A DNA stretch of 54,081 nucleotides from assembly GCA_028706255.1 (NCBI GenBank), contig JAQWBS010000008.1, forward strand, positions 1-54,081. The letters are read 5' to 3'. Positions within the stretch are counted from its first letter, which is position 1. Every line of letters starts with the position of its first letter. The stretch is from Alphaproteobacteria bacterium (lineage in GTDB: Bacteria; Pseudomonadota; Alphaproteobacteria; RF32; CAG-239). The notes under the pieces are model-generated. The model was not told the DNA's origin, ran no database searches, and was given only the letters and a program-made list of their open reading frames with translations. Below, in pieces: positions 45,289 to 50,394 of the stretch. Position numbers and translations under genes: made by a program.

Positions 45289-46422
45289 TTATCTCATCTT
45301 TTGCTTTTTTTGAGAAGCAACAGGGTTAACGGCAATTGGTTTAATTTTATTACCAAATGAAGCAACCTTATGTTTAACTTCAAGATGAGGAGATTCCAAT
45401 CTCACTTTTTCAATTGGTTGAATCCTATCAAGAACGAGTGTCTTTTCAGGAACTTCTTTGAAATCTCTAAAAGCTCTGAATTTTAACAATCTATCTTCAT
45501 CAACGCGTTGCATTTGCTTGTAAAGATATTTTTTTTGTTCAATAATAGAAAGGTGATAAATTTTATCTTTAATGACATCTTTTGCCATTTCAGCCGTTGA
45601 AAGCACCCAACCAGACTGCCCTCCCCAGTAAGAGCTATCAACTTCTTCATAGCTTTCATTATTAAAACTTAAAAAGCTTCCCTTGCCTTTTTTCTCACGT
45701 TTTGTTTCATCCCCAACCATTTCGTAAAACCTACCTTCAAAATAGGTAATTAAGTGAAGCCCTGAAGTTGTATTTGCATTTCTTCTTGATTTTGTTTTTC
45801 TCAAATCAACAATAATAAAATCACCATTTTTATATTTTTTATGCTTATCCAACTTAATTTTTTTACTAACACGATCAGGAAATAGTTCTCTTGCTTGTTC
45901 AAGCATTACGCCACAAGAATTCGGATTAACAAGATTGACATACAAGTCTTTAATGTAATCAATACTATCTCTGGCAGCAACGGTTTTAAACACCAAGGCA
46001 GGTTGGATAGCGCAATAATTCAATCCATTTCCAAAAACTCTTTTTCTTGCTGCTCGCTTATAGCGATTAACAACACGATATTTATTTTCCAAAGCTTCCT
46101 GAAAACTCAAGATATCATTTTCAATCACATCTTCCAAAGCTGATTCGATATCAACTTCTTCATACATCATATATTCCATAATTTTAGACATATCTATCTT
46201 GCCTGCATCGGCAACAAGTTCACTATGGTGAATTGTCTTATCTCTACTTGAGTTTTGGGCTTCTGCAGATTTAGGGGACAAACTCATCACGCCAATAAGT
46301 CCTCCCGTAAGCAAAACTTTCTCCCCTGCTTTTCTCAATTGATTTTGTTTAAACTTACGAATAGCAACTCTTTTTTTATAACTTAGAATTTCCATTAAAG
46401 TTCTTTTTTTCTTATCGACCAT
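45289..46422 (-). CDS. Exported protein of unknown function, 377 residues
   Basis: I do not recognise the family. A long basic N-terminus (MVDKKKRTLMEILSYKKRV) leads to a short hydrophobic stretch VLLTGGLIGVMSLSP and then SAEAQ, which fits a signal peptide or tail-anchored export signal cut after AEA. The body is Lys/Glu/Asp-rich. A possible NlpC/P60-like papain fold is suggested by a Cys in GLNYCAIQPALVF and a His in TTSGLHLITYFEGRFYEM, but the order and spacing are only suggestive. GGGAG precedes the ATG. The gene is alone between recA and a divergent lipoprotein-protease gene. Confidence 0.65.
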   Translation of the reverse strand: MVDKKKRTLMEILSYKKRVAIRKFKQNQLRKAGEKVLLTGGLIGVMSLSPKSAEAQNSSRDKTIHHSELVADAGKIDMSKIMEYMMYEEVDIESALEDVIENDILSFQEALENKYRVVNRYKRAARKRVFGNGLNYCAIQPALVFKTVAARDSIDYIKDLYVNLVNPNSCGVMLEQARELFPDRVSKKIKLDKHKKYKNGDFIIVDLRKTKSRRNANTTSGLHLITYFEGRFYEMVGDETKREKKGKGSFLSFNNESYEEVDSSYWGGQSGWVLSTAEMAKDVIKDKIYHLSIIEQKKYLYKQMQRVDEDRLLKFRAFRDFKEVPEKTLVLDRIQPIEKVRLESPHLEVKHKVASFGNKIKPIAVNPVASQKKQKMR

Positions 46423-46625: not shown

Positions 46626-47174
46626 ATGTATAACAAAATCCATAAAGTTTTCTCTTTTTTTTTAATGGCAATAATTATCCACATGACAAGCTCCTGCACC
46701 ACAAATTCTCCAAAATCTTTGCCGGCTATCATTCCCGCAATTGAGATGAAACCCAAAACCTCTCACCCTCTAGGAATTATTGGCGGAACTGAACCTGTTT
46801 ACCTTGAAGGAATGGTTTCACCATTTATCTCTCGAATTGACACAGGCGCACAAACTTCTTCCATTGATGTTGCTAAAGAAAAATTTTTTGAAAGAGATGG
46901 CAAAAGATGGGTTGCTTTCACCATCATCAACAGCGAAACAAATGAGAGCAAAGTTTTCGAGAAAGTTATTGAAGACCAAATTGCCATTAAAAGAGTTGGT
47001 GGCAACGAAAGACGTGTGATTGTTGTAATGGACATCAAAATGGGTGGGCAAAGCATCAAAGAAAGATTCACCCTTGCTGAACGAGAAAAATTTAAATATC
47101 AAATCCTCATTGGCAGAAACATCTTAAATGGCAGAGCCATTGTTGACCCAGCCTTAAATGTTACCTTAAAATAG
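46626..47174 (+). CDS. RimK-associated retropepsin-like aspartyl protease (Zn_protease family), lipoprotein
   Basis: 182 residues. The N-terminus is a lipoprotein-like signal with TSSC at about residue 24, so it should be anchored by lipid on the periplasmic side. The body belongs to the Zn_protease family (PF05618): IDTGAQTSSIDV carries the retropepsin DTGA motif and the later ILIGRNILNGRAIVDP is characteristic. In other bacteria it accompanies an ATP-grasp peptide ligase and a 7TM protein, as here (genes at 47201 and 48751). The trio is thought to make or trim a Glu-containing peptide or protein tag. The next gene starts 26 bp later. Confidence 0.85.
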   Translation: MYNKIHKVFSFFLMAIIIHMTSSCTTNSPKSLPAIIPAIEMKPKTSHPLGIIGGTEPVYLEGMVSPFISRIDTGAQTSSIDVAKEKFFERDGKRWVAFTIINSETNESKVFEKVIEDQIAIKRVGGNERRVIVVMDIKMGGQSIKERFTLAEREKFKYQILIGRNILNGRAIVDPALNVTLK

Positions 47175-47200
47175 TTTTTTTGACTTAAAGAGATATCAAA

Positions 47201-48745
47201 ATGTTGCAAAAATTTAAATCCATCAGAGTAATTCTATCCATCGGCTTAATTCTTTCTGCAATTTTTGCCGGATATTGTATGTATTATAAAGTCACCCATT
47301 GGGGGTTTAGTTTTAAGCCAAGAGAAACGAAAAGGATTTGGAACATTGAGGCACACATCAACTTTATGCCAACCAATGAAAACATAAAAATCACGCTTGC
47401 CACCCCTGAAGATAGCAAGTTTTATAAAATTTTAGACGATAATGTCATTGCTCCAAAATATAAAGTTTCCCGTATCAAAAGCACTGAAAACAAAATCGTT
47501 TTACGTGCCCAACCACAAACAGAAGAACAAAATCTATATTATCGCATCTTATTGTTTGATAATGAAGCAGGCAAAGGCACTGTAAGAGCTTCTAAACCAA
47601 GAAAACCTGCTATACCAGAATATGATGAGACACAAATGGCGGTCGCAAAATCAATCCTTGCTCAGGCAGAAGCCCTTGAAACGGAAGCTGATCTTCCACA
47701 AAAAATTATTGAAATTTTTAATGAGAAACCAACCCCTGTTGCCGTCTCAACCCTTCTTCCTTTCAAAATTACGAAAGAAAATGTTGCAACAACAATTAAA
47801 AACCTGTTAGCAATCAAATCTGTGCCTTCAAGGCTCATCAAAGGGGTTAGACTAGAAGAAAACAAAAAATCTTTTTCACCAGATTTAATGATTGAAGCTT
47901 ATGTGGGTGGAAAATGGCGTCTTTATAACCTCAAAAATGCGGCAAAGGGAATGCCAGATGACTTCATCATCTTTCAACGTGGTGACAAAGGACTTTTAGA
48001 CATTGAAGGCGGTGAAAACTCTTCCATTCAATTTTCTGTGTTGCGTTCAACAACGTCTAATTTTGACTTAGCAAATCACCGTGCCAGACTGGATAAAACA
48101 AAATCTTGGTATGATAATTCTATTTATAATTTGCCAATTAACAATCAAAACATCATCAAATGGCTCAGTGTGTTTCCGCTCGCAATTCTTGTGATTGTTT
48201 TTATTCGTAACATTGTTGGCTTACAAACGATGGGAACGTTTACCCCAATGCTTATTGCCATGTCTTTAACGCAAACAGGCTTTGTTAATGGCATCACATC
48301 ATTTGCCATTATTATCTCTATTGGTATGTTGCTCAGAACTTTACTTTCAAGGCTAAACTTACTTCTTGTGCCAAGAATTTCATCGGTGGTCATCTTCGTT
48401 ATCATCATTATGCAGACCATGACAATTATTGGCTATCGCATGAATTTTGACATCGGGCTTTCAGCAGTCTTTTTCCCAATCATCATTATGGCATGGATTA
48501 TTGAAAGAGCCTCCATCACTTGGGAAGAAGATGGTGCTTTTAATGCTTCTCGAGAAATTTTCAACACGCTCCTAACCTCTGTCGTCACTTATTTCATCAT
48601 TCAAGATGAATATATCAAACATTTGATGTTTGCGTTCAATGAACTCAACCTTGTGATTTTGTTTATTGTGATGTTGCTTGGAACTTACACGGGCTATCGT
48701 CTGCTTGAACTTAAAAGATTTGCACCTTTGGTCAAAAGAGGATAA
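47201..48745 (+). CDS. Inactive transglutaminase-like/7TM membrane protein
   Basis: 514 residues. One N-terminal helix (about 10-27) is followed by a soluble region of about 300 residues and then about seven membrane helices from residue 325 to 505. This is the arrangement of the inactive-transglutaminase plus 7TM family (PF14400/PF14402). The soluble part carries FKITKENVATTIKNLLAIK and GGKWRLYNLKNAAKG, the degenerate transglutaminase part. It is likely to lie in the periplasm, facing the protease lipoprotein upstream. The ATG is 26 bp after that gene, and the ligase gene follows 5 bp after its stop. Confidence 0.85.
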   Translation: MLQKFKSIRVILSIGLILSAIFAGYCMYYKVTHWGFSFKPRETKRIWNIEAHINFMPTNENIKITLATPEDSKFYKILDDNVIAPKYKVSRIKSTENKIVLRAQPQTEEQNLYYRILLFDNEAGKGTVRASKPRKPAIPEYDETQMAVAKSILAQAEALETEADLPQKIIEIFNEKPTPVAVSTLLPFKITKENVATTIKNLLAIKSVPSRLIKGVRLEENKKSFSPDLMIEAYVGGKWRLYNLKNAAKGMPDDFIIFQRGDKGLLDIEGGENSSIQFSVLRSTTSNFDLANHRARLDKTKSWYDNSIYNLPINNQNIIKWLSVFPLAILVIVFIRNIVGLQTMGTFTPMLIAMSLTQTGFVNGITSFAIIISIGMLLRTLLSRLNLLLVPRISSVVIFVIIIMQTMTIIGYRMNFDIGLSAVFFPIIIMAWIIERASITWEEDGAFNASREIFNTLLTSVVTYFIIQDEYIKHLMFAFNELNLVILFIVMLLGTYTGYRLLELKRFAPLVKRG

Positions 48746-48750
48746 AGAAA

Positions 48751-49707
48751 ATGTTTAACAATTTGTTCAACTTCGCCTCTCCAAAAAAGCTCAAAGAAGC
48801 CGGCGTTTTGGGAATGAATGCTCGAAACTATAACTTCATCTCAAAGCTCAACAAGAGAAGTCTTTACCCGCTTGTGGACGACAAAGTCATCACCAAAGGG
48901 TTGGCAGATAAGCATCAAATTAATACGCCTAAAAAAATTGGTATCATTGAATTTCAACATGAAGTTAAAAATATTCTTCAAATCCTTGGAGACTATAAAG
49001 AATTTGTGATTAAGCCAGCACAAGGCAGTGGCGGAAAAGGCGTTTTGGTTATTAAAAACTATGATGGCGAAATTTTCACCACAGCTTCTGGCAGAATAAT
49101 CACTTACAATGAAGTTTATCAGCATATTTCCAACATCTTAAGCGGACTATATAGCTTGGGCGGAAAATATGACACAGCACTCATTGAAGAACTAGTTCAC
49201 TTCAGCGACATCTTCAAAGATTTCAGCTTTCAAGGCGTGCCAGATGTGAGAATTATCGTCTACAAGGGTTATCCTGCCCTAACCATGATGCGTTTGGCGA
49301 CTAAAGCTTCTGGTGGAAGAGCCAATCTTCACCAAGGGGCAGTTGGCGTTGGATTAGACATTCAAACAGGAGAAGCCCTAAATGCCGTGATGAGAAACGT
49401 GCCAATCACACATCATCCCGACACAAATGCTGAATTAAAAAATCTTGTTGTGCCTTTCTGGAGAGAACATCTGGAAATTGGAGCAAAAGCTTATGATATG
49501 ACAGGGCTGGGTTACATCGGCGCTGATATCGTGCTTGATAAAGAAAGAGGCCCAATGATGTTAGAGCTTAATGCTCGCCCTGGTCTTGCGATTCAAATTG
49601 CCAATGGCATTGGCTTGCAAAAGGTCTTGGAAAATATTGAAAAGAATTATCCTAAAAATTTAAATGCTCAAGAACGAGTAGATTTTGTTTTGAACCATAA
49701 AAAATAA
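48751..49707 (+). CDS. RimK-related ATP-grasp alpha-L-glutamate ligase
   Basis: 318 residues. The ATP-grasp fold is recognised by FVIKPAQGSGGKGVLVI (nucleotide loop), VPDVRIIVYKGYPALTMMRLA, and MMLELNARPGLAIQIANG near the C-terminus, which supplies metal-binding Glu and Asn. It should ligate an amino acid, probably Glu, to an unknown peptide or protein; the subfamily is the RimK-related E-ligase (TIGR02291). It is the cytoplasmic part of the trio with the protease and 7TM protein. The three genes are tightly spaced and probably co-transcribed. Confidence 0.88.
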   Translation: MFNNLFNFASPKKLKEAGVLGMNARNYNFISKLNKRSLYPLVDDKVITKGLADKHQINTPKKIGIIEFQHEVKNILQILGDYKEFVIKPAQGSGGKGVLVIKNYDGEIFTTASGRIITYNEVYQHISNILSGLYSLGGKYDTALIEELVHFSDIFKDFSFQGVPDVRIIVYKGYPALTMMRLATKASGGRANLHQGAVGVGLDIQTGEALNAVMRNVPITHHPDTNAELKNLVVPFWREHLEIGAKAYDMTGLGYIGADIVLDKERGPMMLELNARPGLAIQIANGIGLQKVLENIEKNYPKNLNAQERVDFVLNHKK

Positions 49708-49776
49708 ATCTCAAATGCTGGCAAAAGCCCCCGACACAAACTATATAGAAGATAGACATTGACGAAGGAGAAAAAA

Positions 49777-50394
49777 ATGACCAAAGAAGTTAAAAAAATT
49801 GCACCAAAAGAAGCACCAAAAAAATTAGCGGGTGGTAAAACAGGAAAATTAGCAAAAGCAGAGACCAAACAAATTGGTGTCAGCCAGAGCCGTGCAAAAA
49901 AAATCAAACATTCATACAAAGTGAAAGATGCTGAAAACGCACTCGTTTTGAAACTTAAAGATGGAGATGTCGTTATTGAAATGTTTGCAGATGTTGCACC
50001 AAAGCACGTTGCCAGAATTAAAGAACTGGTGAGAAGCAAGTTTTATAATGGCTTAAAATTCCACCGTGTGATTGAAGATTTTATGGCTCAAACAGGTTGC
50101 CCACAAGGCACAGGAACAGGCGGAAGCGGAAAAAAACTTGCAGCTGAATTTTCTAAGCTCTCTCACAAAAGAGGCACTGTTTCTATGGCAAGAGCAATGG
50201 ACCCTAACTCTGCAGATAGCCAATTCTTCATCTGCTTCACAGATTGCCCATGGTTAGACGGACAATATACCATTTGGGGTGAAGTCACTTCAGGCATTGA
50301 ATTTGTCGATATGATTACCAAGGGGACAGGAGCAAACGGAACAGTTTATTATCCTGATGAGATTATCAGTTTACAAGTCATTGCTGACCTCTAA
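49777..50394 (+). CDS. Cyclophilin-type peptidyl-prolyl cis-trans isomerase
   Basis: 205 residues. The catalytic Arg block is LKFHRVIEDFMAQTGCPQG, followed by ADSQFFICFTDCPWLDGQYTIWG, all standard for the bacterial PpiA/PpiB group. An N-terminal Lys/Ala-rich extension of about 50 residues (KKIAPKEAPKKLAGGKTG) precedes the core and is unusual; it might bind nucleic acid or ribosomes. There is no signal peptide, so it is cytoplasmic. ATG at 49777 has GAAGGAG 6 nt upstream; an in-frame TTG six codons earlier is less likely. A terminator shared with the next gene follows. Confidence 0.92.
   Translation: MTKEVKKIAPKEAPKKLAGGKTGKLAKAETKQIGVSQSRAKKIKHSYKVKDAENALVLKLKDGDVVIEMFADVAPKHVARIKELVRSKFYNGLKFHRVIEDFMAQTGCPQGTGTGGSGKKLAAEFSKLSHKRGTVSMARAMDPNSADSQFFICFTDCPWLDGQYTIWGEVTSGIEFVDMITKGTGANGTVYYPDEIISLQVIADL

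Follow-up and report, generated by a model that had tools for sequence, protein, structure and literature searches.

What could a protease, a polytopic membrane protein and a ligase, encoded side by side, produce together? The question is raised by three genes of the window, the 54,081-nucleotide stretch of alphaproteobacterial DNA analysed here, for which the original prediction proposed that a cytoplasmic ligase adding Glu-like residues and a periplasmic protease trimming them would build or edit a peptide or tag exported across the membrane. The predicted set of a retropepsin-like lipoprotein, a 7TM inactive transglutaminase and an ATP-grasp protein was confirmed by the open reading frames (Table 1) and by Pfam and NCBIfam matches that are far above chance (PF05618 for RloA, E 1.5e-28; PF14400 and PF14402 for RloB, E 6e-26 and 5e-84; PF14397 for RloC, E 1.7e-90). 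All three genes lie on the plus strand with the stated gaps of 26 bp (rloA-rloB) and 5 bp (rloB-rloC), and no terminator-like site was found on the plus strand from 46626 to 49777, up to the next gene. The assignment to one operon stands, but the operon was already known and named. The layout of retropepsin, inactive transglutaminase/7TM protein and ATP-grasp protein on a single strand with tight spacing is that of RloABC, and the genes of the window are a stand-alone RloABC module, a member of the named rloABC system described in Pseudomonas aeruginosa. An association of these genes was reportedly predicted by Iyer et al. in 2009.

Table 1. Features of the rloABC locus and its 3' neighbour (positions in the window)
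Feature	Positions	Strand	Remark
rloA: 182-aa retropepsin-like aspartic peptidase with lipoprotein signal peptide	46626-47174	+	PF05618, NCBIfam; solved relatives 9g58, 9g59, 2pma
RloA lipobox T21-S22-S23-C24 (MTSS-C24)	46686-46697	+	Cys conserved in 90% of 96 aligned RloA
RloA active-site motif R70-I-D72-T-G-A75	46833-46850	+	R70 in place of K46, D72 = D48 of P. aeruginosa RloA (PMC12239564 numbering)
RloA R130	47013-47015	+	poly-Glu-contacting R114 of P. aeruginosa RloA; 100% conserved
RloA R153	47082-47084	+	R137 of P. aeruginosa RloA; 99% conserved (96 sequences)
rloB: TM1, periplasmic inactive transglutaminase-fold domain and 7TM domain, 514 aa	47201-48745	+	PF14400, PF14402, NCBIfam RloB
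Periplasmic domain of RloB (residues 43-286), transglutaminase-like but without catalytic Cys and His	47327-48058	+	3isr, Z 14.6 over 221 residues
7TM domain of RloB (residues 300-514) with five invariant Arg (R336, R379, R392, R436, R506) and distant PgsC/CapC similarity	48098-48742	+	
RloB motif G340-LQTMGTFT-P349	48218-48247	+	aligns with PgsC GLATGGMIVP
rloC: cytoplasmic ATP-grasp alpha-L-glutamate ligase-like protein, 318 aa	48751-49707	+	PF14397, TIGR02291
RloC ATP-binding loop K88PAQGSGGKG97	49012-49041	+	K88, G92, G95, G97 100% conserved in 97 sequences
RloC Mg-ATP motif E272-L-N274-A-R276	49564-49578	+	99% conserved
Cyclophilin-type PPIase, Lys-rich N-terminal tail (49777-49911)	49777-50394	+	in this bacterial family, a fourth member of the unit

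In P. aeruginosa PA14, rloABC corresponds to PA14_41690, 41710 and 41730, and the species carries three RloA proteins and RimB (PMC12239564, mBio 2025). The RloA proteins are dimeric and retropepsin-like, have signal peptides, cut runs of at least eight Glu with a strict poly-Glu preference and require D48, R114 and R137 in vivo (PMC12239564). Triple rloA mutants are unable to grow at low salt, are poor biofilm formers with short, wide cells and show increased sensitivity to beta-lactams; when rloB or rloC is deleted in this background, low-salt growth is restored in full and the other defects are relieved in part (PMC12239564). Because of this rescue, RloB and RloC would be expected to make or deliver what RloA removes. 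Cleavage of poly-Glu by RloA and the position of RloB and RloC upstream of it are established for these relatives rather than for the window.

The RloA of the window shares the hallmarks of these proteases, namely a signal peptide with lipobox cysteine C24, a DTGA motif and the poly-Glu-coordinating arginines R130 and R153, and the presence of residues matching D48, R114 and R137 supports a role in trimming an exported product. The lipobox-like TSSC already noticed in this protein proved to be genuine, its cysteine being widely kept (Table 1), and the catalytic D72 is invariant among the 96 aligned RloA. R130 and R153 lie 23 residues apart, exactly as R114 and R137 do. The window protein differs from the PA14 RloA in lacking a Cys after DTG and in a distance from catalytic Asp to first Arg that is shorter by eight residues, in the flap stretch (58, D72-R130, against 66, D48-R114). 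NCBIfam matches of the window RloA were to the RloA3, RimB, RloA2 and RloA1 models, with 90 bits for RloA3 (curated cut-off 210), and RloB matched its own model with 278 bits (E 1.1e-82; cut-off 900); since the RloA1, RloA2 and RloB models are of the "exception" type and that of RloA3 is an "equivalog", each narrow and with a high cut-off, these scores exclude only those narrow subfamilies.

On the cytoplasmic side, RloC scores 429.6 bits against TIGR02291 (alpha-L-glutamate ligase-like; cut-off 314.2), and its closest matches in the PDB, all of weak similarity, are RimK, alpha-L-glutamate ligases and tubulin polyglutamylase. The nucleotide-binding residues of the ATP-grasp protein, whose loss would have spoken against the prediction, are in place: K88, the GS-GKG stretch (92-97), D259, E272, N274 and R276 are all retained, so RloC should bind Mg-ATP.

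In the AF2 model of RloB (pLDDT 84), the periplasmic domain has a clear transglutaminase-type fold, and the columns of the Cys-His-Asp triad that marks active transglutaminases hold K, D and N in the window, in keeping with the triad-less RloB of RloABC. Cys and His are missing at these columns from all other canonical RloB aligned as well and are present only in two fusion proteins described below. The 7TM domain has broken helices in addition to its invariant arginines. Foldseek and VIA-align gave no significant PDB match for it, the best fold match of the model (RnfA/NqrD, Z 9.0) being within the range of generic helical-bundle similarity, and a comparison with the viral library returned nothing significant.

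A motif likeness, GLQTMGTFTP in RloB and GLATGGMIVP in PgsC, was the starting clue for a link between this domain and PgsC/CapC. The similarity is weak, specific and reciprocal. When a profile of the RloB 7TM domain was searched against about 600 targets and decoys, ranks 1 to 6 were all CapC, and 12 of 43 CapC sequences reached E<1, compared with 1 of the 43 reversed CapC and 3 of the 255 other membrane ORFs, whereas control profiles from seven other membrane families gave 0-3 CapC hits each and none in the top four. RloB likewise took ranks 1 to 6 with a PgsC profile, and the alignments cover most of PgsC in one register. The best E-values (0.001-0.003) come from a small database, and CapC sequences are mutually related, so the hit counts are not independent. 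The Pfam CapC model (PF14102) matched only 2 of 50 RloB members (E 1.9), and HMM-HMM comparison of the two families was not significant (P 0.016-0.37; forward score 15.9 against 14.3 for reversed decoys), for which reason homology of the RloB 7TM domain with PgsC/CapC is held here as probable. Sequence searches for PgsC in the PDB and among viral contigs were negative, and our literature search found no paper on an RloB-PgsC link and no second Rlo study. A CapC match in one alphaproteobacterial genome (G526) was false, the protein being heme A synthase. Proteins of about 1000-1100 aa with two tandem CapC domains were also observed in several phyla (L042-L052, L158-L189).

The rlo genes are linked in relatives of the window, where unlinked genes would have spoken against the prediction, and the co-occurrence of the three families was borne out by an A-B-C order in 92 of 100 loci. 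Among the other eight, contig ends truncate three (L072, L126, L150), two tandem rloA stand in front of rloB in L103 (6760-7978), rloC is split in L133, and L138 has an additional rloA-like ORF on the other strand, which leaves two real order variants, a fusion (L053) and a locus without rloA (L054). PF14402 is found in 46 of 49 genomes of the family to which the window belongs, compared with only some 4% of the other genomes of its class, and the named relatives are uncultured gut Alphaproteobacteria followed by Nitrosomonas, Vibrio, Endozoicomonas and others. The nearest of them (L073, 63% in RloB) comes from a MAG labelled Lactobacillaceae that is evidently a mislabelled alphaproteobacterium. 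Three rlo loci (L106, L107, L108) from MAGs labelled Victivallales and Phycisphaerae are nearer to the window (37-41%) than most gammaproteobacterial ones, through transfer or misbinning. Rlo is usually accompanied by a RimK-RimB pair (PMC12239564). With a single PF05618 gene and no RimK over cut-off in the genome of the window, Rlo would work here without that pair, and this lineage, in which neither RimK nor RimB was detected beside its one RloA, offers a clean natural example free of redundancy.

In one alphaproteobacterial genus (g204 of family f116), a single protein of about 850 aa combines RloB and RloC (G266, L040/L053; G1347, L200); its transglutaminase domain keeps the Cys-His-Asp triad, and no rloA is found near its gene. 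Another genome of that family (G1346) has the three genes in their usual form. With RloC joined in this way to the C-terminal end of RloB, the ligase would be expected on the inner side of the membrane domain. The sequences also suggest that an active cysteine peptidase in the fusion protein may stand in for RloA. The idea that the fusion genomes lack every PF05618 protein proved wrong: the sole PF05618 match in each is a long ORF at a different place, a 495-aa frame in G266 and, in G1347, a 470-aa RimB-RimK-type protein (L201, 59-1471) with retropepsin and ATP-grasp in one chain and no signal peptide. The fusion comes from one genus and from incomplete MAGs (83-87%) and is suggestive only. 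In the other variant (G192, L041/L054), an RloB without the transglutaminase domain lies next to RloC and is preceded by a predicted outer-membrane barrel-like protein, and the locus has no rloA.

Does the unit also encode the acceptor of a glutamate chain? All ORFs within 8 kb of the 100 rlo loci were clustered, and no fourth gene common to all lineages was found across phyla. In the family of the window, 42 of 45 loci have a cyclophilin 3' of rloC, in most cases at a distance of 24-92 bp, and outside the family it was seen once; the other neighbours in the window (RecA, DsbD, AlgH) are not kept in family loci. Of the 45 aa in the N-terminal tail of the window's cyclophilin, 29% are Lys, few are acidic and none is aromatic, and one might speculate that the tail binds a polyanion. 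The suggested search for a conserved acceptor gene therefore ended in a family-specific, Lys-tailed cyclophilin and in nothing shared across phyla, the outcome expected if no dedicated acceptor protein exists. This favours a free polymer or a generic acceptor, and a free polymer becomes at least as likely as a tag. At 45289-46422 the window encodes a divergent 377-aa protein that may carry a signal sequence and matches neither Pfam nor NCBIfam; it is present in only 2 of 45 related loci.

One alternative is a reversible tag, in which RloC would glutamylate an existing housekeeping molecule or protein, RloB would present it in the periplasm and RloA would deglutamylate it, in the manner of RimK, RpsF and RimB. 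In its favour, RloA is homologous to RimB and RloC to RimK, and RpsF with eight C-terminal Glu is cut by RloA in vitro (PMC12239564). However, across phyla the operon is not accompanied by a conserved acceptor gene, and in P. aeruginosa no genome-encoded poly-acidic periplasmic substrate of RloA could be confirmed (PMC12239564). A protein tagged by a cytoplasmic ligase would moreover have to be exported after its modification, and the similarity to PgsC points to export of a polymer, which together make the tag unlikely.

A product linked to lipid or sugar, in which amino acids would be attached by RloC to a cell-wall precursor or an undecaprenyl-linked sugar, to be flipped by RloB and trimmed by RloA, seems less likely again. 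The altered cell shape and beta-lactam sensitivity on loss of RloA do point to the wall, and the name of PF14397, sugar-transfer associated ATP-grasp, suggests other acceptors. An OprB-type carbohydrate porin also stands 5' of rloA in about 30 family loci, within 250 bp in some and about 1.2 kb away in others (for example L059, 9751-11064; L103, 5594-6811; L075, 4874-6115; and about 28 more), but the only OprB of the genome of the window is on another contig (C3), unlinked to rloA. No sugar transferase or wall gene is conserved beside rloABC in the 100 loci, and the strict preference of RloA for poly-Glu fits such a product poorly. Least probable of all is that RloB itself is an acceptor or sensor, glutamylated by RloC and clipped at its tail or elsewhere by RloA for control of wall stress without any export: fusion of RloB with RloC in one genus and the inactive enzyme fold of the periplasmic domain, typical of binding or sensing, would suit it, but a 7TM domain with five invariant arginines and broken helices resembles a substrate path, and the only triad-complete RloB occurs where RloA is unlinked, suggesting that an external cutting step was replaced.

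We therefore prefer the reading in which RloC makes an oligo- or poly-Glu, RloB exports it and RloA trims it, to which we give a probability of about one half. RloC would join acidic amino acids in the cytoplasm at the expense of ATP, most likely L-glutamate through alpha bonds, while in contact with the C-terminus of RloB at the inner face of the inner membrane. The chain would then pass the PgsC/CapC-like membrane domain with its invariant arginines and reach the transglutaminase-like domain, which may now serve to bind or guide it, and lipid-anchored RloA would cut the emerging poly-Glu, fixing its length or recycling it. Product left uncut would damage the cell wall at low osmolarity. We infer the synthesis by RloC, the transport by RloB and the behaviour in vivo of the window's own proteins. 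The original prediction of a cytoplasmic Glu ligase, a membrane protein and a trimming periplasmic protease agrees with the genetics and biochemistry of P. aeruginosa RloABC and comes close to the suggestion made in PMC12239564; its exported product gains from the RloB-RloC fusion and the PgsC/CapC similarity, but a dedicated acceptor, as a tag would call for, is not conserved outside one family. The rloABC system itself was known. To its genes, motifs and linkage, observed here in a further lineage, our analysis adds the statistics of gene order, the family cyclophilin, the RloB-RloC fusion with its triad and the specific similarity of RloB to PgsC/CapC. The rlo operon is widespread, and in P. 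aeruginosa osmotic tolerance, biofilm, cell shape and sensitivity to beta-lactams are all influenced by it.

Comparison with known systems places the locus of the window closest to RloABC of PA14, with which it shares gene order, families, a signal-peptide protease with the catalytic D and the poly-Glu-binding Arg, an inactive transglutaminase joined to 7TM and a cytoplasmic ATP-grasp protein. It differs in being alphaproteobacterial, in having a single PF05618 gene without any RimK above the family cut-off, and in the cyclophilin added in its family. RimK-RimB, which acts in polyglutamylation of RpsF, likewise pairs an ATP-grasp ligase with a Glu-removing retropepsin, but both are cytoplasmic and no membrane protein takes part; the fusion genomes G266 and G1347 keep their separate long PF05618 protein alongside RloB-RloC. 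TgpA of P. aeruginosa resembles RloB in carrying a transglutaminase-fold periplasmic domain on a polytopic protein (Z 6.0), but the domain of RloB is inactive, whereas that of TgpA is considered active, and TgpA is not known to have a linked ATP-grasp or retropepsin. PgsBCA/CapBCA shares with Rlo the logic of a cytoplasmic ligase, a small polytopic membrane subunit and an external part with a depolymerase, and PgsC, the membrane subunit of poly-gamma-glutamate synthase, shows weak similarity to the RloB 7TM domain. The PgsB ligase is Mur-ligase-like, whereas RloC is an ATP-grasp protein; RloB also carries a transglutaminase-like domain, and the Rlo bond is likely alpha, not gamma. Tentatively, and with the odds somewhat against it, RloABC might be an ATP-grasp-driven Gram-negative counterpart of PgsBCA/CapBCA, in which the RloB 7TM domain would be a true PgsC homologue, RloC would polymerise alpha-L-glutamate, and the chain would be extruded into the envelope and cut by RloA or, in the fused form, by an active transglutaminase-fold cysteine peptidase. 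The link to PgsC/CapC, if true, names the class of product, an exported poly-glutamate, and makes the mechanism directly testable.
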